DNA from: Prorocentrum cordatum
Lineage: Eukaryota > Sar > Dinophyceae > Prorocentrales > Prorocentraceae
Direction of reading: 5' to 3'
DNA: 64,000 nt
Assembly: GCA_963575745.1 (NCBI GenBank)
Contig: CAUYUJ010015685.1
Span: forward strand, 35,001-99,000
Both the position numbers and the translations under genes were made by a program. Positions 20,023-55,330 of the stretch are shown here, one piece after another (position 1 is the first letter of the stretch; every line of letters starts with the position of its first letter). Below the pieces are notes generated by a model. That model had not been told where the DNA came from and did no database searches. It saw only the letters and a program-made list of their open reading frames with translations.

Positions 20023-22011
20023 TTGGGCCTCCCGATCCCCTTCAAACTTGGTAGCGGGGCTGGCCTATGGTGGTCAGCTCCTGCTCTACTTCTCACCATC
20101 CACGGCACTATCTGGTGGACTACTGACATGGTGGAACATCAGGTTGCAGTGGGTCTGCGCGGAGGTATGTACACAACTTCGCACAACCGCAAGGACACTT
20201 GCAGTGCTACCCCTGCTCTCGCGCAGGCCTCTTACTCGAGTCCTACATCCCTGCGCTACTACACTCCTGAAGCCCACCCACCTACTCCAATTGGAAGCTT
20301 CTTTGAAGATGCCATAAATGGTAGCATGCGATACGATATTGTGCCGCCTCTACCCCCACGCAGGCTTACAACAAAACGCCACAAACCCCAGCCACAAACA
20401 TCCGATCACTACCTACGGGGCCATTGGATTGGCATTGCTATCTTTAGTCTTATGTGGGTCGCTATCGGGTGTGCTGCGGGACACATGCGTGGCGGAGACG
20501 ACGCCAGAACAACCGGCCCCCATTGGGACCCGGCCAGTCAACTACCATTCCGCGAATTCGTTCGAGAGGTACATGCCTGGATTCACGTGACCACAGGCAA
20601 TGTGAGGCCCTCCCAACAGGCTGCAGCACTGCACCGTGGTCTGGGGGGTCTCGCGCGGGCCATGGCCATGAGAGCCCCCCCCGCAGTCATCAATTTTGGC
20701 GTTAACATTGGTGGTCGTCATGCCGATGGCGTCACCTACATCGTGCTCCTCCTTGGCGCGAAGTTTGATAACTTAGAGGAGGGACGCCAAGTTAACTCGG
20801 GAGCGCCTCTCATCGACTTTCGCGTCCATGCAGGAGAACGGACCGACCAGGCAGTAGCGCGCTTCGAGATAGCCCGCTACGAGGCTGAAACGGCAGGCTT
20901 TAACATCCCCAATTTCCAAATCTTAGCATTTTTCCTGTTCAGAGCCTTAGGAGCGGGGGCGTCGCGTGCAACTCCTACAGCCACTCAACCACCAAATTCC
21001 GAGGAATGAACAACAATTCGATTCTCTACTTGAGCGCACGAGGTCATGCTCACATTGCTGAGCGAACTCCTGGCAACATTGTCGGTATCTTCAGCCGCGG
21101 TCACCGCGCCGAAACCTTTCATGCTGAAACGAATGCAGGGCAACCTGCTACAAGCGTCTGGAATGACGATCCGCAACCAACGGAGACCGCCGCTCCATTC
21201 GCCCATAATGGTGGTTTGCCCACGGGGTCGCAAGACTCCTGGGCTAGATATCGGGGGCCGTCGGCAACGGCGGCCCCTGCACAAGCCATTGCCCTTGTAG
21301 TCTCGGAGGGGTAGCCCGCTGAATCTGACTTCGACTCCGGAACCGACGCCGACCCGTCATCAGATGGCGAAGCGACGGCCCTAGACTATTCCGGCGTGCC
21401 CACGTATTTTACATAAGAGCAGCAGTTGCAATGGCTGTTTCTAGGTCGGAAACCAGAAACACAAACGCAGATGGAGACGGCTTATGAAGAAACCAATTTG
21501 TAAGGTACGACGTACCATCCGACGGGCACCCAGGGGAAGAGGCAGGGGTCGTGGCAAGGGCAAGGGCAAGGGCAAACGACGGCGATTACATGGCAGAAGT
21601 GTGTTAGCATTCCTGGCATCTATTGCTGGACCACAGCATGAAGACATATTCCTGGGCGCAGGCAGGGGCCGTGGGCGCGCCACAGGAAAGGGTGAGGGGC
21701 GTCGGGGCAACCCGAAAGATGCGAACGGCAAAACCATGGAATGTGACATCTGCCATGGCACGCAGCATTTCCGCCGTGCATGTCCCCGAGGCGATGGGAG
21801 GGGCAGGGGTCCGTCAATGCATTTGGCTCGACCCGATTCGGACATGCAGTATGTCGATTGGGAGGCGCTATTAGCCAACCCTGCCGACAACCCAACCGCA
21901 GTTGCTAATTTCATGTCTGCCAGGCATTTAAATGCCAGCGTGTCCCTCGAGAGATGCGCCGATGAGCTTTTGGGGAGATATGTGTTGGCCACGACGAGTT
22001 TAACCCTGTAG
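20023..22011 (+). pseudogene. Gag-like polyprotein, copy 1, frameshifted
   Basis: Three frames are needed: 20023-21009, 21006-21314 and 21484-22011. The first has hydrophobic segments near 20080-20130 (WWSAPALLLTIHGTIWW) and 20425-20485 (GIAIFSLMWVAIGCAAG). The core follows with LGGLARAMAMR, GVTYIVLLLGAKFDNLEE and FEIARYEAETAGF. The last has a basic glycine-rich stretch and a CX2CX4HX4C zinc knuckle (CDICHGTQHFRRAC, about 21742-21783). This order fits a retrotransposon Gag that binds genomic RNA. Copy 2 aligns throughout and keeps TGA where this copy has TGG (20579). The start is uncertain: GAP-like conserved sequence begins at 20041, and no clear ATG is shared. Probably non-functional because of the frameshifts and 3' truncation. 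Confidence 0.75.
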
Positions 22012-22046
22012 ACTGGCTCGGCGCACCCATCGCGGGGCAACCTGCG
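21135..22046 (+). repeat. GNRA mini-hairpins in copy 1 (three)
   Basis: 21135-21148 GCAGG-GCAA-CCTGC; 21702-21715 TCGGG-GCAA-CCCGA; 22031-22046 CGCGGG-GCAA-CCTGCG with one G-T pair. The second lies at the same codons as the hairpin at 44396 in copy 2, with outer pair T-A here and G-C there. Confidence 0.8.
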
Positions 22047-31793: not shown

Positions 31794-31889
<96 letters not shown>

Positions 31890-36018: not shown

Positions 36019-36205
36019 AGCAGGAGGAGCGCGGCGCGAGGAGGATGAAGAGGGCAGGGAGGCGGCAGGAAAGACGCAAGGAAGGAACGGACGATGACAA
36101 GGAGGACGAGAAGTCGAGCTTTGAGGATATGTTGTGGTGAGAAGTTCTTCGGAGACTCGCAATGCCATTTTGGCGCCATCGTGGGGCCCTCTTGGGGTCC
36201 TCTTG
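36019..36205 (+). repeat. Dispersed repeat, shared with 23011-23200
   Basis: See 23011-23200. The (GGA)n tract is only a few units long here, whereas it is about 750 bp in the other copy. Confidence 0.85.
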
Positions 36206-36760: not shown

Positions 36761-36837
36761 CCCCCCCCTTTCCTGGCCCGGGGGGGGTCAGTGGAAGAGA
36801 GGAAAAACGCGCTATACCACCTAAGCCCAGAGGGCTG

Positions 36838-39574: not shown

Positions 39575-39757
39575 AGGAAGGGGGTGGCGTGGTGGAAGGG
39601 CGGCAGGGTGGGGGGGTGGAAGGGCGGGTCCATGCACCTCCTAGGCGCGATGATCCAGCACAAGGCTAAGTTTGACATGTTGTGCGCCACAGAGTAGGGG
39701 GGGGAGACGGGGCGAGGGGGAGGTGGGAGGGGAATTTATCGAGGCGTCGATGGTGAT

Positions 39758-40807: not shown

Positions 40808-42498
40808 GACGCGGCAGCGAGAACAAAAACACATCGAAAATACTCTGGCGGGTGCTCCGGGCGGAGGGGCGAGCCAGACAGGACAGAGAAATTCGAGAGG
40901 TGGCAGAGCAGGGCCAAGGTGCTGAGAAGATTGGCGCCGTCGTCAACATGGATGGAGATTCGGTGTCGGGCAACGCTAGCATTGCAGAGGCCTTCGCGCA
41001 GTTCTACGGGGGCCTGTGTCAGGAGGAAAGGGGGGGGGGGCGGCGCGAGGCAGGAACGGGATATGACAGAAGAGCTTGCCGCGGTCACGGCGTCAGAGAT
41101 TGTGGCAGCTCTGCGCGCCATGAAGGCCGGCAGAACAGGTGCAGACGACGGGCTTGTCATGGAAATGTTGCGGGCGGGACATGTCGAGTTGATGAACGTT
41201 TTGGCTTCCTACATCACATGCGTGCTGGTCGGCGCCATGGGGCCGCCGAGCGAGTGGAGAGTTGCGCGACTGTCTGTGATTTTCAAGAAAGGCTCGCGGA
41301 GCGAACTGACAAGTTACATGCCGATATCGATCATTCCGGTAATGGCTGAGCTGTTCCGTAGTTCAGCGCTGTGCTATGCCGGCGTATCCGCGACTACGCC
41401 GAGCAGAGATATCGTGAAGAGCAGTGCAGCTTCTGGAGCGGCAGAGGCTGTGACGACGCTCTACACGTGCCGCGCATGGTGGCGGAGAAGTCCGGGGAGT
41501 GGGGGGAGGAGCTGTGGATGGCTACGCTGGACGTCGAAAAAAGCATTCGATAGAGTGCACCGCGCGCAGCTGTTCGAAGCCTTGAAGGCAGCGAATGCGG
41601 GCCCAAGTGTCGTCAACGTACTCCGGGCGCTCTATCGGGGCATGTCGGCCTGGGCCCAGGTGGCCCGGGGGTCGGAGAGCAAGCGCTTCCAAGTGCAGCG
41701 CTGTGTCCGGCAGGGGGGCCCGTTGTCACCAGTTTTGTTAAACCTGGTCATGGCGCAGATTCTAGGCGAAGCGAGCTGCGTCTGGCAGCGGCGCGGCTAT
41801 GGCGCTATAGTCGGCCAGGCGCTCAACGGACGGCGCCTCACGGACGTGGCCTTCGCAGATGATGCGACCTTGACTTCGCGGACGTGGGCGTCGTTGAGGC
41901 GCATGATCTTGGCTTTTTTGGCTGCTCTACAGATGAGGCGCCCAGTTACACCCGACAACGTGCAAAGTGCAAACGCATCGGCCACAAGTGTCGCGGAGGG
42001 GGGGCGTCGAATTGGAGGGCGGCTTCTCGGTCAAGGTGCTGGAAGAGGGCGAACCTTTCGAGGTGTTGGGCGCGATGCTCTCCTTGGCCGACGCGACAAA
42101 GGTTGGGGCCGAGCATGCGTAGAGTAGCCGCTGGTTGGCGCAAGTTCTGGACAGTGCAGAACATGCTGCCGAACAAGGACGTCTCCCTGTCCTGCAGACT
42201 GAAGCTCTTCGACACGTCTGTTGGTGCATGCGTTTTGTGCGGCTCGAACTCCTGGGCGCCTCGCGCGGCGGAGATCCGCTTCCTGGCGGCTGCGCAGAAC
42301 AAGATGCTGCGCCGGATTTGCGGCTTCAGGCGTGCGCCAGAGGAGCAGTGGCGCGCTCGGGTCCACAGGGTGACAAAGAAGGCGCGGGGCAAGGCGCAGG
42401 CGGTGGGGGTGCGAAGGTGGCCGGGGGCGCGCGCCCAGAGGATATGGTCGTGGGCGGGCCGTGTTTCGAGAATGACCGCCGCGTCATGGGCGCTTTAA
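40808..42498 (+). pseudogene. LINE ORF2, reverse transcriptase part, frameshifted
   Basis: Reading needs several frames. A linker (NASIAEAFAQFYGGL) ends at a 10-G run (41032-41041). Then come ASEIVAALRAMKAGRTGADD and VARLSVIFKKGSRSELTSYM (RT motifs 1-2). A switch near 41365 gives CSFWSGRGCDDAL and ATLDVEKSIR. A switch back gives KAFDRVHRAQLFEALKAA, VRQGGPLSPVLLNLVMAQIL and LTDVAFADDATL. FADD is the catalytic [FY]xDD pair and is intact. A last frame (41884-42498) has LKLFDTSVGACVLCGSNSW and QNKMLRRICGFRR, typical of the LINE C-terminus. The many shifts make it inactive as read. Confidence 0.8.
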
Positions 42499-42548
42499 GG
42501 GTAGCTCTTTGGGAGATGTTATACAGAATCGGGAGTATAGCTCGCGCG

Positions 42549-42567
42549 CCGTTGCCTTTGGCTCAAG
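42549..42567 (+). other. Spliced-leader-like relic, copy 2
   Basis: Nineteen bases, ccgttgcc then tttggctcaag. They match the leader (ccgtagcc, attttggctcaag) with one substitution and a two-base deletion. The relic lies 184 nt before the conserved Gag segment at 42751; in copy 1 the same interval is 198 nt. Confidence 0.65.
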
Positions 42568-42608
42568 GCACGCGCGCCCTATTTGCCCGGACACTGCTTG
42601 TGTTCGCT

Positions 42609-44561
42609 ATGTGCTGGAAAGATCATTACATCGATATTATCCTATCTTATCCGTCCATTCCTCTTACTGAACAGCCTCAGTACGATGCCGGGCGCTATTT
42701 GCCATCCGATTCCCATGGAATCGGATGCTATTTGACTTACCATAGTCACTTTCGACTTGGTAGCGGAGCTGGCCGCGCTCTCGTGTGGTCAGCTCTTGCT
42801 CTTCTTATCCTCGCGCTACACGGCGCGATCTTCGTGACCAACTACCACCCTGCGCCACCACTCCCAGTGCATTTACGAGGATCTATCCAAGAGCAAGAAG
42901 CAACACGAGAGGTGCGACGTCCAGACAACAACATTGGTACCATATACGCTTCATCACTGCGCTACTACCAACCGCTCGGCAACGAGCCAAAAGCGCAGTA
43001 CTTGAAGCAGATGCGGGGAGACCCGCGAGATAAAGCGCTTCGAAGACTTGACAAGGCGCTACCCCAGCGCGGCAACGCGCCTAATAACCACCCATATCTT
43101 CACAGCCTTGGGCTGGTTATATTCGCCATAATATGGTTCGCGCTGGGGGCAGCAATCGGACGCATGCGTCGTGGAGAGAACAGCGCCGATGGGCAAACAC
43201 ATGGCCCATATTGGGACCCTCAAGGCAACGTACCTTTCCGCGAGTGCGTTTATGAGGTCAACGCGTGACTCAGCGTCACAAGTGGACGCATGACGCCACA
43301 GGCCCAAGCGGCCGCCATGCAACGCGGCCTGGGTGGCTTAGCGAGGACACTCGCCATGAGGGTACCACCTGACATTATAAACTATGGTGCTGACATCGAT
43401 GGGGTCCACACCGACCCAGTGACCTACATCATGTTCCTCCTAAGCATGAAGTTCGAGCGCCTGGAAGATGAGCGCCGGCTCGCTTCCGGCATGCAGCTCA
43501 TCGACTTTCATGTGCCTCGCGGAGAACGAATCGATGCCACCTTTGCCCGATTCGAAATGGCCCGGCTTGAGGCGCAGTCGGTGGGATTTGATTTTCCCAA
43601 CTTCCAACTACTAACTACGATCCTATTCCGCGCCTTAGGCGTCGGCAACCAGCGAGCCATGCAACTCTTACAGCCACGCAATCACCAAATGCCCCGAACA
43701 CAACAACAGTATGATGAGTTGCTGGAGAGTATGCGTTCGATAGGTCACCTATCAGAACGGTCTCCTGGTAATATAGGATCAGTGTTTGGAAGGGGAAGGG
43801 GATCTGGTAGTGGGAACTTGTACACTACCTTAACCACTGAAGCCCAGCCTGGAAACGGGCCCTCAAGCATATGGGCTGACGATTCTGGAGAATCCACTGC
43901 TCTACTCGCAGGGGATCGGTCACAACCAAGCTGGGCAACCAGCCCTCCTTCCAGAGAACCTCAACCACACCGTTCCCTATGGGGTGAAACAACCCCCCTA
44001 ACCGACGGTGTATCCACCTACCTGGGAGACGACGATTTCGACTCCGGCACCGACACAGATGCTGTATCATCAGACGGTGTTGAAGCTTTAGATTGGTCAT
44101 ATATCATGAATATGGAAAGTGTCAATCAGCGTGCTGAACACTTGTTCTGGTTATTACAACAGGCAGAACGGAGGTGGAGGAGGTTCACGCGAAAACCAGT
44201 GCGTCGTGTTAGGAGGAGGATACGGAGGAGCTCCAAAGGAAAAGGTAAAGGCAAACGGGGTCGTCGTAGGTTGAATGGACGAGGCATCACGGCCTTCCTC
44301 CAGAGGATCTCAGATGACCAGTATGATGAGATATTTTTCGGGGGAAAAGGCCTTTTTAAAGGCCGTAGAGATACCTCAGGCAAAGGCAAAGGTAGGCGGG
44401 GAAACCCGCGAGGTAGAGACGGCCAGATTCTAAAGTGCCATGAGTGTGATAGTACCGACCATCTTGTGAGAGATTGCCCAGCGAAGGGAAATGTAAAGGG
44501 CAGATTGACCGAAGTCCATTTTGGCTCAAGTGAACCATTTATTGAATATCTGAGCCTCTAG
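42609..44561 (+). pseudogene. Gag-like protein, copy 2, one in-frame stop
   Basis: 650 codons from ATG 42609 with a single TGA at 43266-43268, where copy 1 has TGG (Trp). Two hydrophobic stretches, about residues 56-76 (ALVWSALALLILALHGAIFV) and 166-184 (LGLVIFAIIWFALGAAIG), look like membrane spans and are conserved in copy 1. The Gag core follows (GLGGLARTLAMRVP, DPVTYIMFLLSMKFERLEDE, FEMARLEAQSVGFDFPNFQ, MPRTQQQYDELLESM), then a Ser/Asp-rich linker, a Lys/Arg/Gly-rich stretch and a CX2CX4HX4C zinc knuckle (CHECDSTDHLVRDC, about residues 609-622). The role expected is particle assembly and RNA binding. Seven mini-hairpins lie within. The stop could be read through or simply be a decay mark. 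Confidence 0.75.
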
Positions 44562-44883
44562 GATTTTGAGACCATGGAACAGATATTTTACACTTGGGTT
44601 CGCTGCATGGACAACGTCGACGAGCTCGAGGCGTATGGCCATGGACTGTACGCGTACTACCTCGAGTACCTCCGCAGGTTCGTTGTCGGCAACAACGAGC
44701 TCACTCCCGTGGATCACGGAACGCTGGGAAACCAGCCTTTATCTTTCTTCGACTGGATGTTCGGGAACCCAGGCAACATCATGGCCTACGAGAGCAGTGA
44801 CGAGGACGTCACTGTAGAGGCCTCGCCTTCAGAGGTTGATCACAACCTCCAACCTCCACCCGACCGCATGCCTGGAAACAGGC
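42974..44883 (+). repeat. GNRA mini-hairpins, Gag region (eight)
   Basis: Starts and stems: 42974 GCTCG-GCAA; 43013 GCGGG-GAGA; 43067 GCGCG-GCAA; 43847 GCCTG-GAAA (one wobble); 43930 GCTGG-GCAA; 44396 GCGGG-GAAA; 44723 GCTGG-GAAA; 44870 GCCTG-GAAA. Each is followed by its complementary 5 bases. Copy 1 lacks the hairpins at 42974, 43013, 43067 and 43930, but has one at 44396 with a changed outer pair. Confidence 0.9.
44509..44530 (+). other. Internal spliced-leader-like sequence
   Basis: Contains the exact 15-mer CCATTTTGGCTCAAG (44516-44530), preceded by ccgaagt where the leader has ccgtag. It lies at the 3' end of gag and encodes EVHFGSS. Copy 1 has gcatttggctcgac at the aligned place, so a diverged form was already there in the common ancestor. 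Confidence 0.5.
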
Positions 44884-45104
44884 CTACCTATCCTCGAAAT
44901 CACGCTGAACTAATAGAAATGGAGTCTCAAGCGTTCGTTGCGGGCGTGCCAGGGGGCTCATTTATACCCCCTGGTTCGCTCGCTCCAGGCGAGTACGGGC
45001 CACGCGCACTACTGCAAACCCTCATGAGGATGCACGATATATTAACCATAGCATATCCCGAGAGTCAAGAAAGCATCGAAGCTGGTAACATGATGCGGAG
45101 TTAG
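44574..45104 (+). CDS. Post-Gag segment of unknown function
   Basis: 176 codons in the same phase as gag, separated from it by one TAG (44559-44561). ATG 44574 follows the leader-like 15-mer by about 40 nt. Contains WVRCMDNVDELEAYGHGLYA and AYYLEYLRRFVVGNNELTP, probably helical, then an acidic linker. Copy 1 retains a similar phrase (DEFNPVDWLGAP) near 21990-22030. Two mini-hairpins (44723 and 44870) and an 8-bp perfect stem (44949-44974) lie inside. I recognise no domain. It may be a Gag C-terminal region following a nonsense mutation or read-through site. Confidence 0.5.
   Translation: MEQIFYTWVRCMDNVDELEAYGHGLYAYYLEYLRRFVVGNNELTPVDHGTLGNQPLSFFDWMFGNPGNIMAYESSDEDVTVEASPSEVDHNLQPPPDRMPGNRPTYPRNHAELIEMESQAFVAGVPGGSFIPPGSLAPGEYGPRALLQTLMRMHDILTIAYPESQESIEAGNMMRS
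44949..44974 (+). repeat. Perfect 8-bp stem with 10-nt loop
   Basis: CCAGGGGG (44949-44956) and CCCCCTGG (44967-44974) around ctcatttata. It encodes PGGSFIPPG. It is not of the GNRA type. Confidence 0.6.
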
Positions 45105-46258
45105 TGCTGGCAGCCTTGACTCTTATTGATAGCGTGCACCCTGAGGACGTGCAGAGGCATGTGTGGTACTCCAGAGGGAGATGGCGCCAGGCCCTTGAAA
45201 GGGCCATCACCATGCGCGGCCAGGCTCTTCCTCCGCCAGGATGGGGTCTCCAGGCGGCGGGACTATGGCCCAACCATGCGGCCGTGCGTAATATCGCCGG
45301 GCAGCCTGTGCTCGGCAACGAGCCTGAGCCGACAACCGTACCACCTACGCCGGGACAGCCAAGCGATGCTCAGACGCCGGCTACGCAGGGAAACCTGCCC
45401 GTCCCGGCTGTACCGATGGCCGTCATCATTGGCAATCCTACATCAGAAGACGAAGAGGGTGATGGTTGCGGGCTGTGCGAGGACGCAACCACAATCCTCA
45501 TGATGGAGGTCGCTGGCGAGGTAGAGGTGGACTTCGATCCCGACGAGTCTGACGCACCACCACCACCGGCACAAGCGCCAATTGCGCCGGGCTCCAGCCA
45601 GCAGGGAGACCTGCCTCTGTTAGACGATCCGCCTGGGATCGCGCAGGAGCTTCCGCAGGAGCCCCCGCCGGCTCCCGCTCAGGCTGCGTCAGCAGCCTCT
45701 TCTGATGAGCATGCCAGGAGGTCTCGTTCTCATCCACGCCTCAGAGAAGAGCCTCATCCGCAGGCACGGCTCCCTCGTGAGTGGAGGCAAGCTGGCCCAA
45801 AGGAACACGCTCTTCGGCGAGGGGGCGAATTGCTTCCCTACAATGACCCAAGGCGTCGAAAAGGGGAACATTCGGCCTTCGGAAAGGGCAACCCAGCCTA
45901 TAGAGACGCTCAGGGTAAGTCCATGCGCGGTGGCTACCAGCTTGCGACGAACATTCGTACTGATGAAATACAAGAAGTACGAACGCAGCTGCGAAATGTC
46001 ATCGCAGCACGCAAACTGTACAGACCTAATGCAGTTTGTGGACCGTGCTCAGAGCCGTTTCAGGAGTATAGGCCGGGATGCCCTGTAGGGCTCAACGAGG
46101 GTTTGAGCCCGAACAGAGGCCGTACTCCTCTTAAGGAGGGTCATCCACCGCTGATCCCGATGACTCAAGACGAGATCGCAGAGATCAATCGTCGTCTCGG
46201 GATCACGGCTCATATGAGGCCGAAGGCCGAGGAGGTTAAGCCTCCTCCGGCTCTTTAG
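45104..46258 (+). CDS. Proline-rich polyprotein segment, unknown
   Basis: 384 codons. The frame changes by one base relative to the previous segment near 45100; the downstream phase reads AELVLAALTLIDSVHPEDVQ across the junction. Middle part is Pro/Ala/Glu-rich and probably unstructured (DPDESDAPPPPAQAP, then EEPHPQARLP). A basic segment follows (NDPRRRKGEHSAFGKGNPAY) and a C-terminal helical part (TQDEIAEINRRLGITAH). Hairpins at 45310, 45385 and 45601. The next frame is already open from 46218, giving a 41-nt overlap before the TAG, so a frameshift, either natural or mutational, would join it to the Tpt1 segment. Confidence 0.5.
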   Translation: MLAALTLIDSVHPEDVQRHVWYSRGRWRQALERAITMRGQALPPPGWGLQAAGLWPNHAAVRNIAGQPVLGNEPEPTTVPPTPGQPSDAQTPATQGNLPVPAVPMAVIIGNPTSEDEEGDGCGLCEDATTILMMEVAGEVEVDFDPDESDAPPPPAQAPIAPGSSQQGDLPLLDDPPGIAQELPQEPPPAPAQAASAASSDEHARRSRSHPRLREEPHPQARLPREWRQAGPKEHALRRGGELLPYNDPRRRKGEHSAFGKGNPAYRDAQGKSMRGGYQLATNIRTDEIQEVRTQLRNVIAARKLYRPNAVCGPCSEPFQEYRPGCPVGLNEGLSPNRGRTPLKEGHPPLIPMTQDEIAEINRRLGITAHMRPKAEEVKPPPAL

Positions 46259-48063
46259 CCTTCCTGGAACGCGAGGAAACTCGCCCGGCGTTTCCAGCCA
46301 GTCCCAACGGCCAGAACCGATGGACAACGATGACCAGAGGGCCCAGCGAGCTGCGGCAGATGATGAACGTAGACGGATAGCAGAGGAACGCACCCGCGAG
46401 GCAACTCGCCAGATGCTGATGGACTCCCAAAAGATCTACATGAAGGAGGCGAAGGCGAAGAAGCCTCCACTTCCACTCCGACCGAAGGCTAAGAGTCAAA
46501 CGCCGGCCCCTAGGTCGCTTTCGGAGGAGAGACCGAAGACAGCAGCACGCTCTGAGGAGCTTGGGTCAGATGTGCAGATGGAGGCGCGCCGCTCTAAAAC
46601 GCCGAGATCACCGACTAGAGCAACTCCAGCACAGAGACCTAACCCCAGACAGCCACCTCAGGAACCTGTAGAAGTACGTAGACGCCCGCCTAGTCGCAGC
46701 GGGTCTATCGCCAACAAGGCTAAGGCTTTCGAGCGCGCAGGGTACGCCCCTGCGCCAGCCTCGCTTGTGGCGGCGCGCTCCAAAAGGTCCGATGAAGGTG
46801 CTCTGTCTAGGGGTGCCTGGGCGCCGACGATTAGGGGCAGCGCCAGCCGAGAGTCACCGCGGGGAAACCCGCCAGGCGCTGCTGCTGCAGCTTCCTCCTC
46901 CTCGGGAGCCGCAGCCTCTTCGGCGACTGAGGCTCCTTTGCGGGGAAATCCGCCCGAGGAACAGCTGCGCCACCCAGGAGACACATCCTTCACCAGTGGG
47001 AGTCAGGCCGTGATCAGGGATAGACTTGCCCTGCGGAAGCCCCCACCGATGCGCTCGGTGGATGAGGAATTCATGGGGAAGTGCAGGCGAGAAAATATTA
47101 TCCCGAGCAAGAATCACACCCTCAAGCAACTGAGTAAGGCTCTCAGTAGGGTGTGTAGACACGCACCTGACAAACCACGCAATGCTGTGTGGAGCCTGAA
47201 CACCTGCGACGATCATGATGGCTGGATTAACCTCGTAGAGCTCGTCCATGAGTACCCGTGGCACCACGGACATACGAGACATGATGGTTACAATCCCAGA
47301 CATGACGAGGCCAAAGTCATCACCGCGAACCTATACGGCCGAACGGTGGACCAGCTGGCCGCCATCATGATGGAGGTTGTCCATGTCCGCGAACCAGACG
47401 GTGAAGAGAAACAGCGCCTTCAGTTTAAGGTGTTAGTGCGGGACTCTGGCAAGTCCGACATCTTCATCCGGGCCTCTCAAGGGCACTCGTGGACGCTGAA
47501 GGCTCCATGGTCGTTGTACAAGTATATCGTACTACACGACAACCCTGCCGGGAGACCGGCCCCATATCCCGAGGTTGCCATGCGTGGTGCTCGATGGACT
47601 GCCTTTGAAGGTATTATGTGGTATGGCCTTTCCTGTCGTTCTGAACGCAACTCGAAGAAACAGGGGGCAGGCCGGTCACACGTCCACCTTGTGCCGACGG
47701 TTCGCCGTCGCAGTGTGAACAGTGGGTGGGATCCAGATTCCAACATCATCATCTTTGTGGACTGGCACATGGCCTTGAAGGATGGAATACAATTTTGTTG
47801 GTCTGACAACGGAGTCCTTCTATCCGAGGGAATTTACGGCATCATTGAACCGTGCTATATTTCCCACGTAGAAGACCTGGCCACGGGGAAGCAGTGGCGC
47901 AACCCAGAATATCTGGGTGATCGCAAGGCACGCGTCACTACCGCCTTCAGTGCTAGTGTCAAGTACCAGTGGTCTCGCGACCAAGAGGGCGTCGACCCTC
48001 CTATGGTTTACGGTCACAGAGAAGTTGGGGACCACTACAGCCCTGCCACGCTGGGAAACCAGC
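45310..48063 (+). repeat. GNRA mini-hairpins, linker and Tpt1 region (eight)
   Basis: 45310 GCTCG-GCAA; 45385 GCAGG-GAAA; 45601 GCAGG-GAGA; 46271 GCGAG-GAAA; 46859 GCGGG-GAAA; 46940 GCGGG-GAAA-TCCGC (one wobble); 47547 GCCGG-GAGA; 48050 GCTGG-GAAA. All have the complementary 3' arm. 47547 is inside the Tpt1 domain and is read in a different frame (AGRPA). Confidence 0.9.
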
Positions 48064-48302
48064 CCGAAGTCCACCAGATCTTTATGGTCACCGAGAGTGA
48101 GGCCCGAAGCGCGGCTCCAAGCCGCGCTCCAAGCCAAGGGCCTAGTGCCATATCTTGGCAGGCCATCAGCACCTCGGATCTGGACCAGATCGCGGCCGCT
48201 CTAAATCCTGAACAGGTGGAGCAATTGGCGGATAGACTGTATCAGCAGGACCCCTGGGCCGCTGGCCAGGGAGCCATGCCACGCAGGGAAACCTGCCCAT
48301 AA
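46320..48302 (+). CDS. Tpt1/KptA-like RNA 2'-phosphotransferase domain protein
   Basis: 660 codons from ATG 46320, the frame being open from 46218. Residues 1-255 are charged then Ser/Pro/Ala-rich. About residues 262-520 match the RNA 2'-phosphotransferase family, which transfers the 2'-phosphate left by tRNA ligase (and related phosphates) to NAD+. Motifs: KQLSKALSRVCRHAP (family LSK.LS..LRH), DGWINLVEL, RLQFKV, FIRASQGHSW (family IRA.QGHS), SHVHLVPTV (family HVHL), and IFVDWHMALKDGIQF with SDNGVLLSEGIYGIIEP. The HGT motif before the last block is not obvious, and HDNPAGRP sits near there with a mini-hairpin. Most catalytic Arg/His positions therefore look present, but activity is uncertain. 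The TAA at 48300 falls after a hairpin whose usual peptide (QGNLP) lies in the next frame, so the true protein probably continues into the RING segment. Confidence 0.8.
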   Translation: MDNDDQRAQRAAADDERRRIAEERTREATRQMLMDSQKIYMKEAKAKKPPLPLRPKAKSQTPAPRSLSEERPKTAARSEELGSDVQMEARRSKTPRSPTRATPAQRPNPRQPPQEPVEVRRRPPSRSGSIANKAKAFERAGYAPAPASLVAARSKRSDEGALSRGAWAPTIRGSASRESPRGNPPGAAAAASSSSGAAASSATEAPLRGNPPEEQLRHPGDTSFTSGSQAVIRDRLALRKPPPMRSVDEEFMGKCRRENIIPSKNHTLKQLSKALSRVCRHAPDKPRNAVWSLNTCDDHDGWINLVELVHEYPWHHGHTRHDGYNPRHDEAKVITANLYGRTVDQLAAIMMEVVHVREPDGEEKQRLQFKVLVRDSGKSDIFIRASQGHSWTLKAPWSLYKYIVLHDNPAGRPAPYPEVAMRGARWTAFEGIMWYGLSCRSERNSKKQGAGRSHVHLVPTVRRRSVNSGWDPDSNIIIFVDWHMALKDGIQFCWSDNGVLLSEGIYGIIEPCYISHVEDLATGKQWRNPEYLGDRKARVTTAFSASVKYQWSRDQEGVDPPMVYGHREVGDHYSPATLGNQPEVHQIFMVTESEARSAAPSRAPSQGPSAISWQAISTSDLDQIAAALNPEQVEQLADRLYQQDPWAAGQGAMPRRETCP

Positions 48303-49802
48303 ATGGACTCAGAAATGAGATGCCCGAACCGCAGGGAGACCCGCAGACGTTCGGCCGCATCTTTGGAGAGCCTGCTCGATTCGAGCAGATGCCTGGTAGC
48401 CCCTCGCATAGTATGCGCACACCGAGGGGCATGACCCCAATGGCGACGCCACCTGCACAGCCTCCGTTCGGGACTCCTGGTCGCTCTGCCACGAGTGGCA
48501 CTCTCATGGAGAGGATCGCAGCGGCCAGGGCCGAGCATGGTACAGCTCTCCTGAACATGATGCCGCCCGGCACTCCAACGAGTCAGCAGGGAAACCTGCC
48601 CGGCACTCCAAGCCATCATCGACCGTTTGCTGGACAAACCACTGTCGCTGGTGTGCCTGATGACTACCGTGCAAGGGTGGCAGCTGCTGTGCAACAGGTG
48701 CAGAGTCACAACCTGCCTCACCCGAGTGGTCAGAGGTGGAGGCCGGCCTGGTCCTGGGAGCCTGAGGGTCCCAATCCAAGGGACCCTGCTCGGCAACGAG
48801 CCTTCATCCCAGCCTTCAATGCTCACCCTAGCATGGCCCAGGGCCAGAGACCATCGCCAGCACACATGAATCCGCCGCTGTACCCTGATGGGTCCAGAGT
48901 TCCGAACAAGTTTGTTCGCGAGATGGCGGATCAATTCCACGGCCTCACAAACGTGCGCTTTAGCGATCAGTCCATGTATCCGCACATGGCCTTTATGCCT
49001 GCGCCGACGACGCCAGATGTGGCTGTCCAGCCTACTGCCCATTCGATACCGTCTGGCAGTAGAGGTGTGCCTGATTATATCAGGCAGACATGCCACACCC
49101 AACAGGCGTGCTTTAGGCGCAGACAGGCCGTGCAGAACGTGCGTGATCAGTCACGCGCGGCCGCGCTTGAGGTCGTGAGGAACAGAGGCTCACCCATGCG
49201 AGGAAACTCGCCCGCTGTGACGCCTACAGCCTCCGTGCCAGCAGCTCCTCCAGATGTGGCTGCCGTAGTGCCGGAGGTGCTAGATCCCGCAGGGGATCCT
49301 CCAGCGACCTTCATGCGCTCCGAGACGGTCCTGGAGAGACAGCGGCGGGTATATCCCAGGGCAGCAGATGTGGAAGTTTTCATTGGGATGGAAGATACCT
49401 GCGCGGTATGCCTCGAGGAGTTTCAGCCCAGGGAGAGCGTTTACCGCTTGAGGTGCAACCACTTATTCCATGAGGAGTGCTGGAATTCAAATGTGGTGGG
49501 CCATGTTGCAAATCAGCGCGAGGGAGACCCTCAGCAACCACCATGTGCTATCTGCCGAGCGCCTGGCATCATAGCGTCATCATTCCCATGGACCGGCTCC
49601 TGCACTCAGGCTCCTGAGCAAGCAGCGAGGGAGCTGCGGGAGTTGAGGAGCATGGTGGAGGAGATGACAGCCAGGATGCTAGACAGGCAGACAGCTCAGC
49701 CCCAGCAGCAGGGAAACCTGCCGGAGGAGGTGAGGCCGCCGATGGGGACGGGATACTTCGATCAGCTTATCCCGATGACGGCACCTCAGCAGGGGAACCT
49801 GC
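48283..49802 (+). repeat. GNRA mini-hairpins, RING region (seven)
   Basis: 48283 GCAGG-GAAA; 48331 GCAGG-GAGA-CCCGC (one A-C mismatch); 48586 GCAGG-GAAA; 48788 GCTCG-GCAA (read as ARQRA); 49198 GCGAG-GAAA; 49708 GCAGG-GAAA; 49789 GCAGG-GGAA. A related 13-nt stem with a 3-nt loop (GAGGG-AGA-CCCTC) is at 49520. Confidence 0.9.
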
Positions 49803-49921
49803 CTAACACCCCACAGGTGGCTCCTCAAATGTCTCCCCAGAGTGGGGGCGGGGCAGAACTGGCACTGGGCCCTGAGCAGCTGCGTGAGTTGCGTGTTCGG
49901 CATTTCCAGACAAATGGATAA
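48320..49921 (+). CDS. RING-H2 finger protein segment
   Basis: 533 codons from ATG 48320. The same frame is open upstream through the hairpin at 48283 (QGNLPINGLRNE). Mostly Pro/Gln/Gly-rich. About residues 360-415 form a RING-H2 finger: CAVCLEEF, then LRCNHLFHEECW (C-x-H-x2-H-x2-C) and CAIC, with a 20-residue insert before the last pair. RING-H2 domains usually bind an E2 and act as ubiquitin ligases. Finding one in a retroelement polyprotein suggests either a captured host domain or a structural zinc finger. The ORF ends TAA 49919-49921, overlapping the next ATG (49914) by a few bases. Confidence 0.75.
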   Translation: MPEPQGDPQTFGRIFGEPARFEQMPGSPSHSMRTPRGMTPMATPPAQPPFGTPGRSATSGTLMERIAAARAEHGTALLNMMPPGTPTSQQGNLPGTPSHHRPFAGQTTVAGVPDDYRARVAAAVQQVQSHNLPHPSGQRWRPAWSWEPEGPNPRDPARQRAFIPAFNAHPSMAQGQRPSPAHMNPPLYPDGSRVPNKFVREMADQFHGLTNVRFSDQSMYPHMAFMPAPTTPDVAVQPTAHSIPSGSRGVPDYIRQTCHTQQACFRRRQAVQNVRDQSRAAALEVVRNRGSPMRGNSPAVTPTASVPAAPPDVAAVVPEVLDPAGDPPATFMRSETVLERQRRVYPRAADVEVFIGMEDTCAVCLEEFQPRESVYRLRCNHLFHEECWNSNVVGHVANQREGDPQQPPCAICRAPGIIASSFPWTGSCTQAPEQAARELRELRSMVEEMTARMLDRQTAQPQQQGNLPEEVRPPMGTGYFDQLIPMTAPQQGNLPNTPQVAPQMSPQSGGGAELALGPEQLRELRVRHFQTNG

Positions 49922-51317
49922 TGCGCACACAACCTTTATGCTGGATGCCGACAATCCTGAGACTGAGAGTGCGTCGTTGTACCTCTCAGATTCCTCAGTG
50001 GCAACAGCAGCAACAGCAGCCAGGGCCGTCGATTTCTCAGCTACGAACGAGGAGTTCGATGAGTGGTTGCAGTACAGGGATCACCTCACGAATGAGGGGT
50101 TGCAGGACATCGCCCTTCATTCGTATCTGACGCTGACGAGACGCACCACCCGCGAGCAGTATAAGAGCATACGTGATGAGTATGCCAACTGGCGGGAGGA
50201 GCGGGGCGCTCATGCTCAGAACGTGTCGTACTTCCAGGACATCGACATGGCACGTATGGTCGAAGGCAGGCTGGGTGCCAGCGTAGTGCGGGGAAACCCG
50301 CCAGGGAGTACAAGTGAATCGCGGGGAAACCCGCCAGATGGCACAGCTGGCACTTCAGAAACAATGCACATCAAGCAACCGAGTAAGACTTTCTTGGAGG
50401 ATGGTGGAAACTCTATCCTCATCGATGTAGGCTCGAAGATCAACATAATGGGAGAAATCACGAGCCGCAAGTTTGTCCAGGCTGCTGAGGCACATGGCCG
50501 TTCTTGTACGTTCGAACCCCGTTCTCGTCTGAACATCAACGGGGTGGGCGAAGGGTCGGCCCCAGCGGATACCGTAGGCACCTTCAGTATTGTCTGCGAG
50601 TACCAGGGCTCGACCCAGCTCGATTCGTACAAGACGAACATTGTGTCAGGCTGTGGCAAAGACCTGCCAGCCATCCTCGGCCTCGATAGTATGCAGGACA
50701 AGCGCACTATTATTGTGCTCGAGCGAGGCCAGGAGAAGCTGATATTCCCTGGAAAAGGACAGGTCAAGATGGAGCTCCCCGAGGGCTCCAAGATCATGCC
50801 GACGACGAAGCTGCCATCAGGGCATCTGTCGATCAGGTGTGATCGATTTGGAGCTGCGGGGCAACCCGCCTCGAGCTCAAGCAGCACGTCATTTCAGACG
50901 GTGCTGACGGGCGAGCCGACCCCGGCGCAGGAGCGCAAACAATTGCAGGGAAACCTGCCTCAGGGGTTGATGGAGACGCTCGCCAAAGCTATGATGAGAG
51001 GCGATAGCGTCGACGATCTTGAGACGTTCGATTGCTTCGTAGCCAGGACACTGGCCCAGCATGGTGGAAGTGTACCCATGGACGCTGCACGGTCCCGCCG
51101 GAAGATAGTGATGGGGTACACGAACCGTGAGCTGCAGACAGTCAGCGACGCGAGGACCAAAGGCGTGCTGAAGCAGCTGATGGATAATCCATCCATGCTG
51201 GCGGCATCTGCGGAGCAATCCGCCTCTGAAGCCACGGCGCGCTGCAGTGCTGAGCTCCAGCATCTGAGGGGGGCCCAGATGCTGGCAGACATTGCAGGCG
51301 CATCTTCTTTATCTTGA
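49914..51317 (+). CDS. Retropepsin-like protease segment
   Basis: About 467 codons from ATG 49914. The frame is open further upstream, but that part overlaps the RING frame. The N-terminal third is helical (DEWLQYRDHLTNEGLQD). Around residue 171 is SILIDVGSKINIMGE, which resembles the retropepsin D-[ST]-G motif but has Val (DVG). A later AILGLDSMQDKRTIIV fits the LG.D segment of retropepsins. If active it would process the polyprotein, but the Val makes that doubtful. Five hairpins (50288, 50321, 50856, 50945, 51210) lie inside. Stop TGA 51315; the next frame carries MAGRRRPLVVLPDGRKARG from ATG 51319, pointing to a further one-base shift near the G-run at 51372. Confidence 0.6.
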   Translation: MDNAHTTFMLDADNPETESASLYLSDSSVATAATAARAVDFSATNEEFDEWLQYRDHLTNEGLQDIALHSYLTLTRRTTREQYKSIRDEYANWREERGAHAQNVSYFQDIDMARMVEGRLGASVVRGNPPGSTSESRGNPPDGTAGTSETMHIKQPSKTFLEDGGNSILIDVGSKINIMGEITSRKFVQAAEAHGRSCTFEPRSRLNINGVGEGSAPADTVGTFSIVCEYQGSTQLDSYKTNIVSGCGKDLPAILGLDSMQDKRTIIVLERGQEKLIFPGKGQVKMELPEGSKIMPTTKLPSGHLSIRCDRFGAAGQPASSSSSTSFQTVLTGEPTPAQERKQLQGNLPQGLMETLAKAMMRGDSVDDLETFDCFVARTLAQHGGSVPMDAARSRRKIVMGYTNRELQTVSDARTKGVLKQLMDNPSMLAASAEQSASEATARCSAELQHLRGAQMLADIAGASSLS

Positions 51318-53880
51318 AGATGGCAGGGCGACGCCGCCCACTAGTCGTCTTGCCTGATGGCCGAAAGGCCAGGGGGTAACAAGGACAGCGGGGTGACCTG
51401 CCTTAGCAAAAGAGCTTTTGTCATTGAAGATACGAGAGAGGCTTGCGCCGACCTCCGCACCCGAGGTTATATCTGTGATCGTATTTCCTACAATGAGCTT
51501 ATGACGAGTGTGGGCACAGATTACCTGGGTGCGTTGATCAGTGGAGATTACACTCTCATATGGATTAGTACCCCGGGTGACTGGTATGTACGAACTCCAG
51601 GGAAGAGAGTGGCTCCACGTTGGTCACGTATCCAAAACCTTTTGATAAAAGCCAGGAAGCTCCGTATGAAAATCTTAATATTTGGTCCCACAGGATATGT
51701 TTGGAAGTTATCTCCAGTACGTGATACGCTGGAAGATCTTAAGTTGTCAGTGATACGGATGCGTTTGTGTCATTCCGGTATTCGGTTCAATATGCAAGAC
51801 AGTACACCGAAGGGTACTTATATGCAGGTGACTACATCAATACCGATTAACTCTAAGCTGTGGGCATGTACGTGCAAATTGGCGATACCACAACATGTGT
51901 TGGATTGGTACGGCCAAACGGTACGGCATGCTGAATGGCGAGCTCAGACACGTACTACACTCATCCGTCATCTTAACGACAAAATCCTGGGAAACACCAC
52001 CACGCACGGAAACGTGCCTATATACCTGAGCACCTATACACGTACGGACCACAACATCCATCACTACGTGACGACCAGCAAGGGAGGACCGAAATGGTCT
52101 GATGTTATCCGACGTGTAACAATTAACCCGGATACCAATGCGGTTATACAGGATATCGCAGTAGCCGATCAACCAACAGGATATGATTGGCATGCACCAC
52201 TACCTGCAGGGGTTGCCAACATCAGCACACGGTTGTATTGGCAACCCGAGGAAGCGGTCTTGCTCGGAAACGAGCCTACTCAATCACCACAGAAACCTAG
52301 ACGCGTCATCATAGATGACTGTTCTCTCCCCCTCCCGACTCTGGCGATTGACGCATGTGCCCACTCAACCGCGACGATGGGCACACAGACCGGCGAACAA
52401 GACGAGCAAGTCTTACCTACGGAATCGCGTATCAAGCAAAAGGAAAGGCTCAAGGCCGAAAAGGAAGCAGGCATCAAGCCTCGCCGCATCAAAAAGCACG
52501 TTGAAGACGGAAGCGACGATTGCGGCGATGACTTGTCAGGACTCGGACAGGATCTTATGGCGACCTGGAGCACTGACGTCCCGACTGAGCTGATAAGCTC
52601 CGATGAGGATGATGACCTGTTCCTTACCCTCCCCACATCTATGCCCGACACACACGCTGACATATACAGCATAGTCACTACTCTATGCTATGGTCATAAC
52701 AACTGCGTGGACATGTTGGAGCTTTGTGGCGGTGAGGCTGGCATTTCAGAGCTTGCCTTCTCAAGGGGACTCTCCTCAGGAGGCAACTTAGACAAGGCCA
52801 CGTGTGTCGACCTGGGAGACCCCTCGGTGCAGCGGTCTGTAGATCACTACTTCGCAATATGCTACGTACGAGTTGCCATACTACAACCCAGTTGCCGCAC
52901 CACAGGACCACCATCCTACTACAACTACAAAATCAATCACAATACTTGGGAACCGCACCACACATAAGATTTACCACACATAACTTACCGTGGTAAACTT
53001 GCTGTTGCTCAAGATGATGCACGGAGGTGGTTTATACGCGAGCAACCTACAGGAACATGGGTGGATGACATTTCCCCATGGAAGGAACTTGCCAACCGAC
53101 CGCACATCACAACCGGACGCATTGATCAGTGTGCGACGGGACTCAAAGATACGGCTGGTGACTATATTAAGAAGCCGACAAATATCACCAGCAACGACGA
53201 GACGATTCTAAAACCTTTTGAGCGACTCAAATGCAACGGTCAGCATGTGCACGCACAACCGTGCAACAGAGAGCTTTCACTGGCACAAAAATACACTCGA
53301 CGATTGCAGTCTGCCTTTGTGGAAGCCGTCTATTTGGCAAAAGCCATTGACACTGCGCGCGGAAACGCGCCTACACGCACCGCACATGCTTACCCTGCTG
53401 ACCTTCCTGATCAAGCCGAACCGGGAGAAGGCGTGAGACGCGTCGGCGATCGTATCATCCCAAAAGTGGCTACATGCCCAGCATGCATCGACAATGTCCG
53501 AAAGGACAGTCCTAGCCACAACAGAGACCCTACGCAGTGTAAGTATCATGATTCTATCTCTGTATATTGGCCATGTCCCGCATGCCAAAGGGATCTTACG
53601 AGAAACAAAGGTGTTAAGAACCACCTCGATACCGAACCTGGTAAATGTCGTTTTGCTGAACCGTTTAAACTTCCAGACGATCATGACCCCGAAGGTAAGA
53701 CTGTGCCAGCTTGGTGGAAACCCTTACCCAAACCTGGTGAGGGCCAAGCTTCAGCGTCAGGTGGCCGCCAAGGCGCGCACGCCAGGCCACCGCGACCACG
53801 ATCCTTCGGGAACGCTGATCCGACATCTGGTGCCAGCAGTTACGACACGCTACGAGACGCTCCCGAGCGTGGAAACACGC
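50288..53880 (+). repeat. GNRA mini-hairpins, protease and MTase region (nine)
   Basis: 50288 GCGGG-GAAA; 50321 GCGGG-GAAA; 50856 GCGGG-GCAA (read AGQPA); 50945 GCAGG-GAAA; 51210 GCGGA-GCAA-TCCGC (read AEQSA); 52004 GCACG-GAAA; 52262 GCTCG-GAAA; 53357 GCGCG-GAAA; 53867 GCGTG-GAAA. All have complementary 3' arms and all are followed by C. Confidence 0.9.
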
Positions 53881-54110
53881 CTTCTGCGTCTTCTGGCGAA
53901 CCGCCACAGGTAGCGGCCCGCCGCGGTCGCCTGCAAGGCGTACCACCACCACCAGATGCAGTTGAGGAAGGAGACCGACTGCGGAGAGCTACAAGGAACC
54001 CTCTTGCCTCCACCGGCTCGGGGGCTCCACGACTACCCGACTGGGCGAGATTTGATATCCAACGCAGTCTGCAAAATCTCCGTAGTCGTGAACCTCATGT
54101 CGTTAAAAAG
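51357..54110 (+). pseudogene. Methyltransferase-like polyprotein segment, one stop, truncated
   Basis: One frame from 51357 to about 54110 with a single TAA at 52965-52967; the reading resumes in phase (LPHITYRGKLAVAQDDARRW). First block (about 51480-52000): LIWISTPGDWYVRTPGKRVA, KILIFGPTGYVWKL, SVIRMRLCHSGIRF, HVLDWYGQTVRHAEWR. Second block: VDMLELCGGEAGISELA, like the glycine-rich motif I of class I SAM methyltransferases, and VAILQPSCRTTGPPSYYN. Then HITTGRIDQCATGLKD and LKPFERLKCNGQHVHAQPC. I recall this pairing from dinoflagellate retroelements; enzymatic activity is unproven. A Cys/His region follows (CPACIDNVRKDSPSHNRD, WPCPACQRDLTRNKGVKNHL). The end (WARFDIQRSLQNLRS) stops against the 90-bp array, so integrase and reverse transcriptase are missing. 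The frame's later stop at 54296 is inside the minisatellite. Confidence 0.6.
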
Positions 54111-54169
54111 GACGGTGGACCGCGTCTCTCCTCCTCTCCTCCTCTCCCCCTCCCCCCCTCCTCCTCCGC

Positions 54170-55330
54170 GCGCCCATTTCGGCGCGCCCCTCGCGCGTTT
54201 AGTGGCCCCGTAAGGAGCTCCGCCGAAGGCCCCAATGGGCGTGCCCGCATGCGCCCCGCGCGCCCATCTCGGCACGCCCCCTCGCACGTTTCGTAGCCCC
54301 ATAAGGGGGCTCCACCGAAGGTCCCAGTGGATGTGCCCGCGCGCGCCCCGCACGCCCATATCATCGCGCCCTTCATGTTTCGTGGCCCCATACGGGGCCC
54401 CACCGAAGGTCTCAGTGGGCGTGCCCGCATGCGTCCCGCACGCCCATTTCGGCACACCCCTCGCGCGTTTCGTGGCCCCGTAGGGAGCTCCCTCGAAGGT
54501 CCCAGTGGGTGTGCCCGCGTGCGTCCCGCACGCCCATTTCGGCGCACCCCTCGCGCGTTTCGTGGCCCCATAGGGAGCTCCGCCGAAGGTCCCAGTGGGT
54601 GTGCCCGCATGCGTCCCGCACACCCATTTCGGCATACTCTTCACACGTTTCGTGGCCCCATAGGGAGCTCCACCGAAGGTCCCAGTGGGTGTGCCCGCAT
54701 GCGTCCCGCACACCCATTTCGGCACACCCCTCGCACGTTTCGTGGCTCCATAGGGAGCCCCACCGAAGGTCCCAGTGGGTGTGCCCGCATGCGTCACGCA
54801 CGCTCATTTCGGCACACCCTCACACGTTTCGTGGCCCCATAGGGAGCCCCACCGAAGGTCCCAGTGGGTGTGCCCGCATGCGTCCCGCACACACATTTAG
54901 GCACGCCCTCGCACGTTTCGTGGCCCCATATGGAGCTCCACCGAAGGTCCCTGTGGGTGTGCCCGCATGCGTCCCGCGCACCCATTTCGGTACACCCTTC
55001 ACGCGTTTCGTGGCCCCATATGGAGCTCCACCGAAGGTCCGAGCGGGTGTGCCCGCATTCGTCCCGCACACCCATTTCGGCACACCCCTCACACGTTTCG
55101 TGGCCCCATAGGGAGCTCCACCGAAGGTCTCAGTGGGTGTGCCCGCATGCGTCCCGCACACCCATGTCGGCGCACCCCTCGCACGTTTCGTGGCCCCATA
55201 CGGAGCTCCACCGAAGGTCCGAGTGGGTGAGCCCGCATTCGCCCCGCACGCCCATTTCGGCACACCCTTCACGCGTTTCGTGGCCCCATAGGGAGCTCCA
55301 CCGAAGGTCCCCGTGGCGCAGTCCGCACGC
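54170..55330. repeat. 90-bp minisatellite, array 1 (about 13 units)
   Basis: Unit: cgtttcgtggccccatag, ggagctccaccgaaggtccc, agtgggtgtgcccgcatgcg, then tcccgcacacccatttcggc. Period 90 bp, so all frames stay open as 30-residue repeats (+: HPFRHTPHTFRGPIGSS...; -: THAGTPTGTFGGAPYGATKR...). Units differ mostly by C/T and A/G changes. The array truncates retroelement copy 2. Confidence 0.95.

Follow-up and report, generated by a model that had tools for sequence, protein, structure and literature searches.

A sense-strand family of GNRA-loop hairpins kept by a Ty1/copia-type retrotransposon of Prorocentrum cordatum

Introduction

Why would the coding strand of a retroelement carry dozens of minute hairpins whose loops all belong to one class and whose stems differ in sequence from site to site? 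The question is raised by a stretch of 64,000 nucleotides (nt) from the dinoflagellate Prorocentrum cordatum (assembly GCA_963575745.1, contig CAUYUJ010015685.1, positions 35,001 to 99,000 of the forward strand), hereafter the window, in which a long terminal repeat (LTR) retrotransposon copy at 42493-54112 holds most of the hairpins. An earlier sequence-only reading of the window had noted the array and proposed selection on, or copying of, a folded RNA or a palindromic DNA unit. Here, we report that the hairpins form a family of sense-strand RNA elements belonging to this retrotransposon, tied to the element family as far as sampled, and not a peptide motif. We put the probability that they are a selected RNA hairpin family kept by the retrotransposon at about 95%.

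To our knowledge, no such array has been described before in any retrotransposon. Likewise, none is described in the titles and abstract openings of the matches listed in the open-licence literature on dinoflagellate retrotransposons and repeats, on GNRA loops with palindromic elements, or on Ty1 packaging. In its main text, a methyltransferase-retrotransposon paper does not use the word hairpin (PMC5890265).

Results

Hairpins of the window

Both strands of the window were scanned for GCNNGGNRACNNGC, i.e. GCNNG-GNRA-CNNGC. The pattern occurs 36 times, always on the + strand, compared with a mean of 1.68 and a maximum of 5 in 100 dinucleotide shuffles of the window, a comparison that the sequence-only reading had outlined for the whole genome. 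Exactly 32 matches fall at 42974-53880, in agreement with its count for these roughly 11 kb, and only four lie elsewhere (21135, 22032, 37011 and 37914). Its total of 38 is reduced to 36 under the strict pattern, the surplus presumably being sites without the outer GC/GC, 21702 and 38803 for example. The hairpins of the region and of a related gag copy upstream are listed here; strict matches come from the pattern scan.

Table 1. Hairpin sites (coordinates in the window, strand, description)
42974..42987, +, hairpin GCTCG GCAA CGAGC, phase 2
43013..43026, +, hairpin, loop GAGA, closing pair G-C (A-T in three other subfamily A copies)
43067..43080, +, hairpin, loop GCAA
43847..43860, +, hairpin, loop GAAA, one wobble
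43930..43943, +, hairpin, loop GCAA, phase 1
44396..44409, +, hairpin, loop GAAA, equivalent to subfamily B site 21702
44723..44736, +, hairpin, loop GAAA
44870..44883, +, hairpin, loop GAAA
45310..45323, +, hairpin, loop GCAA
45385..45398, +, hairpin, loop GAAA
45601..45614, +, hairpin, loop GAGA
46271..46284, +, hairpin, loop GAAA
46396..46409, +, hairpin, loop GCAA, phase 1
46859..46872, +, hairpin, loop GAAA
46940..46953, +, variant of the family shape with G-U closing pair, additional to the 32 strict sites
47547..47560, +, hairpin, loop GAGA, phase 0, inside the Tpt1/KptA span
48050..48063, +, hairpin, loop GAAA
48283..48296, +, hairpin, loop GAAA
48331..48344, +, hairpin, one A-C mismatch
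48586..48599, +, hairpin, loop GAAA
48788..48801, +, hairpin, loop GCAA, phase 0
49198..49211, +, hairpin, loop GAAA
49708..49721, +, hairpin, loop GAAA
49789..49802, +, hairpin, loop GGAA
50288..50301, +, hairpin, loop GAAA
50321..50334, +, hairpin, loop GAAA
50856..50869, +, hairpin, loop GCAA, phase 0, peptide AGQPA
50945..50958, +, hairpin, loop GAAA
51210..51223, +, variant with A-U closing pair, loop GCAA, additional to the 32 strict sites
51388..51401, +, hairpin, loop GTGA, one wobble, phase 1
52004..52017, +, hairpin, loop GAAA
52262..52275, +, hairpin, loop GAAA
53357..53370, +, hairpin, loop GAAA
53867..53880, +, hairpin, loop GAAA
21135..21148, +, subfamily B hairpin, 1 nt off site 43847
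21702..21715, +, subfamily B hairpin TCGGG GCAA CCCGA, equivalent to site 44396, with T-A in place of its outer G-C pair
22032..22045, +, hairpin adjoining the subfamily B gag, one wobble

Stems are fully Watson-Crick at 29 of the 32 region sites. The site at 48331, already singled out as mispaired, has an A-C mismatch, and the other 31 are paired when the wobbles at 43847 and 51388 are included. The ten dinucleotides formerly counted at stem positions 3-4 are all present. Re-dealing the 3' arms among the 32 sites left a mean of 4.9 complementary stems (at most 14 in 20,000 trials). A shuffle of synonymous codons that keeps the reading frames, an outcome on which the initial proposal had been made to depend, produced a mean of 0.98 perfect stems and at most 5 in 2000 runs, against the 29 observed. 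When all 36 sites are reduced to their 31 distinct rows, 99.4% of cells are paired versus 80.1% after shuffling, and 27 cells show two-sided change versus 6.3, a value reached by 0 of 500 shuffles; offsetting the stem partner abolishes the signal. A covariance model run on both strands of the window placed its top 42 matches on the + strand, 36 of which are its own training sites.

Loops in the region are GAAA (19), GCAA (7), GAGA (4), GGAA (1) and GTGA (1), a correction of the original tally, which had missed GTGA and overcounted GCAA. All 32 loops are GNRA on a closed stem by definition of the pattern; when the four loop bases are left free, 59 perfect 5-bp stems lie at 40000-54200, and GAAA, GCAA, GAGA and GGAA together account for 32 of them. 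Outside the GNRA class, GC...GC arms enclose a GACA loop at 20189, 43341 and 51042 (n = 3); since 43341 is no hairpin in the subfamily B copy introduced below, they are taken as chance or variants. Rfam covariance models recognised no known RNA family at the hairpins (36000-54200, E<=1) and gave a single weak microRNA match at 36249.

The unit is 15 nt long: GC NN G, a GNRA loop, C NN GC, and a trailing C. The trailing C, previously counted at 29 of 38 sites, follows 29 of the 32 in the region and none of the four strict sites outside it; in three longer copies of the element (below) it follows 97 of 109. Each of the seven hairpins in a minor reading phase (51210 among them) is also followed by it, so its presence cannot be put down to a proline codon. 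G directly 5' of the stem is rare (1 of 32, P 3e-4; 8 of 109 in the longer copies), so that a sixth pair with the trailing C is avoided. Reading phases are divided 26, 3 and 3 among the 32 sites, so the unit is phase-tolerant.

The carrier element and its copies

The carrier, about 16 kb long, is an LTR retrotransposon of the Ty1/copia type that is abundant in the 4.13-Gb genome. The window copy, assigned to subfamily A, starts at 42493 and ends at about 54112 near a tandem repeat; only its 5' terminal repeat is kept. Its domains are encoded by open reading frames (ORFs) at 42.1-54.3 kb.

Table 2. Carrier element and relative in the window (coordinates, strand, description)
42493..54112, +, 3'-truncated Ty1/copia-type LTR retrotransposon copy, subfamily A (blastn against copies L159-L164; RVT_2 in L164)
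42493..42799, +, 5' terminal repeat, end approximate, without family hairpin (92% identity over 305 nt of the L159 5' end)
43269..44561, +, Gag ORF with Arg/Lys-rich stretch
44433-44486, +, CCHC knuckle match in Gag, below Pfam's cut-off
47124..47831, +, Tpt1/KptA RNA 2'-phosphotransferase domain (Pfam PF01885, 1.1e-20)
49400..49489, +, RING finger
50355..50849, +, aspartic-protease-like domain, without hairpin (motif by eye; alignment with 6 homologs)
51402..51995, +, domain with C5-cytosine-methyltransferase-like predicted fold, without hairpin
20041..21855, +, gag part of an older degenerate relative of the same clade, subfamily B (tblastn 37, 55 and 42% identity in three main pieces)

The Tpt1/KptA domain and the RING finger lie within an LTR retrotransposon polyprotein. 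The AlphaFold2 model of ORF 51345-52964 has a mean predicted local distance difference test score of 59.6, with residues 20-217 mostly at 78-91 in ten-residue blocks, and its fold is predicted to resemble C5-cytosine methyltransferases. An RVT_1 ORF at 40808-42124 has no hairpin site, and we infer that it belongs to another element.

The genome was searched with the protease ORF, which yielded 5477 first-look candidates, of which 84 were scored and listed. Three longer copies were taken as two 10-kb pieces each (L159/L160, L161/L162 and L163/L164). Terminal repeats of 303 nt, 98.35% identical, bound one of them (L163 3851-4153 and L164 9686-9988), at about 16.1 kb end to end; in L159/L160, 178 nt of the 3' repeat lie inside the stretch (99.4% identical), and in the stretch taken for L161/L162 no terminal repeat was found and the 3' end is not delimited. 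RVT_2 (PF07727) matches L164:7160-9304, near the 3' end, at 3.2e-9, above the cut-off, and L160:7985-9439 below it, with no match in two other ORFs of the four scanned. The 3' end of this reverse transcriptase (RT) ORF resembles RNase H by eye in L160 and L164. For an integrase between protease and RT, L164:5267-7156 had no Pfam match, and one homolog (P0014) had a weak rve match below the cut-off.

Hairpins recur in every set of copies and on one strand. The longer copies carry 38, 33 and 38 pattern sites, of which 34, 30 and 32 are perfectly paired (96 of 109). Thirty close copies, the window's included, hold 329 sites, 280 of them perfect, and eight older copies, seven of which were measured at 82.9-85.6% identity to the window copy, hold 91, with 82 perfect. 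No site is antisense in any of the three sets.

In L160 and in L164, three sites start 71-248 nt past the stop codon of the RT ORF and before the 3' terminal repeat; two of the three are perfect in each, and the middle one combines a C-A mismatch with a wobble pair. By eye, the 3' untranslated region of these copies (L160 9466-9760, L164 9340-9640) also contains further inverted repeats besides the GNRA hairpins.

The post-stop sites bear on two alternative readings. In the first, the element would conserve a peptide motif, x-G-N-x-P, with the hairpin as its by-product, and the 26 of 32 sites in one reading phase are what it would predict. The reading is refuted by the codon shuffle (29 versus 0.98), by the 6 of 32 sites in other phases, by the post-stop sites, and by 50856, where homologs encode AGQPA or AGKPA; we give it next to no credence. 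In the second, hairpins in linkers would slow ribosomes for co-translational folding, or steer decay or silencing of the mRNA. It accords with a mean isolated stability of -7.8 kcal/mol and with avoidance of conserved domains, as only 1 of 32 hairpins lies within the domain spans set by the analysts, where 8.2 are expected. Pausing alone, on the other hand, would demand neither a set loop class nor constant stem ends nor the 3' C, and it would have no use for the sites beyond the stop codon, although roles in RNA decay are unaffected by these points. Overall, control of translation or mRNA fate has a small chance of being correct.

Rates of change at the sites

Rates were taken as differences from the window copy at 15 sites. 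In the eight older copies, flanks within 30 nt of a hairpin differ at 16.6% and positions elsewhere at 15.3%, compared with 0-1.8% at each stem position; third codon positions differ at 5.4% inside hairpins and at 31.2% outside. In the 29 close copies, the corresponding values are 0.3-2.1% for stem positions and 6.2% for flanks. Two full stem swaps were seen in subfamily A, one at 49708 in a single copy and one at 43013, which is closed by G-C in the window but by A-T in three other copies. The mispaired site 48331 falls in an alignment gap in all eight older copies, part of a longer gap in the rows shown, and is perfect in one close copy.

Within the loop, the older copies differ at 0.9% (G), 21% (N), 16.5% (R) and 2.8% (last A), followed by 8.3% at the trailing C. 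Over the 37 copies, R changes from G to A 37 times, always at 51388 and still within GNRA, from A to G twice, and to C or T 14 times, 10 of them at 49708. These rates are relevant to RNA-RNA docking, in which GNRA loops would bind minor-groove receptors elsewhere in their own genomic RNA or in a second one, leading to compaction or dimerisation without a protein. The loops vary among GAAA, GCAA, GAGA and GTAA, each of which tends to favor a receptor of its own, and this counts against such docking. A free N between a nearly fixed G and last A nevertheless fits it, and GNRA loops are standard ligands of tetraloop receptors (PMC3494683). We consider it to have a small but appreciable chance.

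In one copy (L135), near the column of window position 49746, most of hairpin 49708 and its 3' flank are duplicated locally, likely a product of template switching. Such a resemblance to template switching would also fit a role at the DNA or cDNA level, in reverse transcription, strand transfer or integration, as for the hairpins that diversity-generating retroelements (DGRs) require at their targets. Those hairpins are likewise linked to a retroelement and sense-defined, with a GC-rich stem of free sequence and a 4-nt G...A loop of the form GRNA (PMC3240598). They differ in having stems of 7-10 bp, in standing singly near each variable repeat, and in occurring in bacteria and phages (PMC3240598), whereas sites here run along the whole element, stems are 5 bp with the sixth pair avoided, and the GCAA loops (7 of 32) do not fit GRNA. 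A DNA-level role is distinctly unlikely.

Relatives of the element

The gag copies of subfamily B offer a deeper comparison. At 43847, the B hairpin (21135) is offset by one base in a gapless alignment and stands in another reading phase over an unrelated peptide. At 44396, the outer pair is T-A in the window's B copy; of seven other B copies, three also have T-A, one has C-G, and three have lost the pairing (two of these alike). A whole GNRA hairpin at this site is limited to the window's B copy and L179, where it includes a wobble. B lacks hairpins 42974, 43013 and 43067 and shows no clean gaps in their place.

Three protein searches were made, with at most 8000 candidates scored in each. 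Two gave 20 homologs, mostly on ENA contigs with others from JGI, NCBI, MGnify and EukProt, and the third, with ORF 46218-48299, gave none. EukProt lists one homolog (P0009) under Pyramimonas, a green alga, where contamination or transfer may be involved. Stems in homologs are predictions from protein sequence: the main phase reads CNN-GGN-RAC-NNG-CNN, so a paired stem limits the two outer residues to few combinations. Hexapeptides compatible with the unit number 18, in 7 of the 20 homologs, against a null mean of 0.66 and a maximum of 4 in 2000. In a looser count, 21 of 47 x-G-[ND]-x' sites are pair-compatible versus 10.1 with shuffled partners (at most 19 in 20,000), and by eye 16 of the 26 incompatible sites and 2 of the 21 compatible ones are at conserved domain positions. 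Site 50945 reads Q..L in the window and H..V in P0017, with no unit in P0015 or P0016; site 50288 reads R..P in the window, R..T in P0015 and P0016, and R..S in P0018, and is absent from P0017, P0019 and P0020. Site 50856, in phase 0, encodes AGQPA in the window, P0015 and P0016 and AGKPA in P0017, as expected from GCAA and GAAA loops, and is absent from P0018, P0019 and P0020. Some homologs are therefore predicted to carry the same unit, at some sites with swapped stems.

Elsewhere in the genome, the skeleton of the pattern is 1.5 times as frequent as its reversed control on both strands, an excess for which copies of the element could account. On another contig (C1), 12 of the first 100 skeleton hits, within 2.86 Mb, are perfect versus 6 expected at 1/16; strands are balanced (49/51) and the commonest loop is GCGA (27 of 100). 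Four of the 12 cluster on one strand at 2.046-2.061 Mb, which may be a copy of the element. One mismatched 15-mer occurs at 7 places in 4.13 Gb; its matched form occurs 5 times in the window alone. In viral and genome contig collections, no DNA relatives were confirmed. The 120 viral-contig loci that share one 15-mer were taken as chance; their sites fall 73 and 90 by strand in 1.01 Mb and are mostly the selecting 15-mer itself.

These data allow the alternative of self-copying mini-palindromes that invade coding sequence, an analogy with Rickettsia that the sequence-only reading had drawn, to be weighed. Rickettsia palindromic elements are likewise palindromic and inserted in frame in coding sequence, yet they are about 150 bp long and sit in unrelated host genes (PMC10969869), whereas the present unit is 15 nt, sense only and confined to one element family as sampled. 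Many near-identical units of in-frame length, gain and loss between subfamilies, the L135 duplication, and perfect hairpins on C1 at about twice 1/16 would be consistent with invasion. Set against them are 0 antisense and 529 sense sites, the balanced strands of C1, purifying selection on stems, and the lack of clean 15-nt insertion gaps between A and B gag copies. Mobile mini-palindromes are thus quite improbable, and a mobile palindrome in the host genome is not supported by the one contig sampled.

Discussion

Covariation, the codon null, slow evolution of stems, and the presence of sites in untranslated RNA together indicate selection on a folded unit, as the initial reading had proposed for a retroelement. 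It had left open whether the unit was a folded RNA or a palindromic DNA. The absence of antisense sites against 329 + 91 + 109 sense sites, the 49/51 strands on C1 and the lack of clean 15-nt gaps favor folded RNA over an inserted palindrome.

Several observations count against the overall explanation, which includes the docking role suggested below. Two of five covariation measures do not exceed shuffles (double-change pairs, with 477 of 500 shuffles as high, and pair types, with 48 of 500), and stems within subfamily A are mostly conserved rather than exchanged. Tuning of the flanks for accessibility was not seen, with a mean pairing probability of the hairpins of 0.77 with 75-nt flanks versus 0.79 with shuffled ones, and the probability is below 0.5 at 7 of 32 sites. 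Regularity of spacing is weak (P 0.048 and 0.023). At the last loop A, the 29 close copies differ by 6.0%, much like their flanks (6.2%) and mainly through A to G at 48788 and 52262, and 49708 is outside GNRA in all eight older copies, with its stem kept. Strict sites number 1-4 per 3.9 kb at the eight B loci (12 of the total of 21 perfect, 0 antisense), and 13 of the 20 homologous fragments lack the unit, so not every relative requires the array. Finally, the CCHC match of Gag is below Pfam's cut-off.

As for what the selected hairpins do, we tentatively suggest, at slightly under even odds, that they are repeated docking or packaging sites for the element's own Gag. The suggestion is based on their distribution from gag to near the 3' repeat, on the fixation of only loop class and stem ends, and on an Arg-rich Gag. 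The Arg-rich peptide of lambda N, by analogy, binds a GNRA-like loop. The element keeps hairpins, each with a 5-bp stem, a GNRA loop and an unpaired 3' C, at 33-38 pattern sites along its sense RNA from gag to the 3' untranslated region; Gag, with its Arg-rich stretch and CCHC knuckle, would dock at them to select and condense a genomic RNA of about 16 kb, much as dispersed packaging signals act in some RNA viruses. New sites may arise through local template-switch duplication, as the partial duplication in L135 suggests, and the 15-nt length would keep the frame, so that they might be tolerated in linkers. The fuller proposal, a multivalent RNA address of 33-38 near-identical hairpins read by Gag, copied locally, and with selection dictating the peptide at each site, is a little more doubtful.

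Two known systems invite comparison. Ty1/copia LTR retrotransposons similarly have terminal repeats, a gag with a knuckle, a protease-like domain and RVT_2; the present element differs in its length of about 16 kb, its Tpt1, RING and predicted C5-cytosine-methyltransferase-fold domains, and its hairpin array. Known cis signals of Ty1 are at the 5' terminus (PMC5454406). Dispersed packaging signals of single-stranded RNA viruses, including MS2, are likewise many short stem-loops with a shared loop motif along a genomic RNA (PMC6281560). Relative to these, the hairpins here vary far less in the ends and length of the stem, in loop class and in the 3' base; the carrier is an LTR retrotransposon, and protein binding is putative.

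If Gag docking is correct, the element would be a natural, dense and strictly defined test case for dispersed packaging signals. Selection of genomic RNAs by dispersed weak stem-loops has been hard to settle, and such signals are usually degenerate. Because the present signal is uniform and strand-specific, with dozens of sites per element and thousands of candidate places, the idea could be tested directly. The array would also show RNA structure overwriting protein sequence in linkers, and it may bear on how a retroelement of about 16 kb became abundant.

Three further features of the window are recorded here. The gag ORF contains ATTTTGGCTCAAG at 44518-44530 (0.04 expected within one mismatch), which we take to match exactly the last bases of the dinoflagellate spliced leader at its 3' end; the full spliced-leader pattern had no match within 3 mismatches. 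A 90-bp tandem repeat forms two arrays, at 54166-55316, just past the 3' truncation of the element, and at 57606-59387. Finally, an (ACATCT)n array of 11.5 kb with extreme strand asymmetry occupies 23897-35423.

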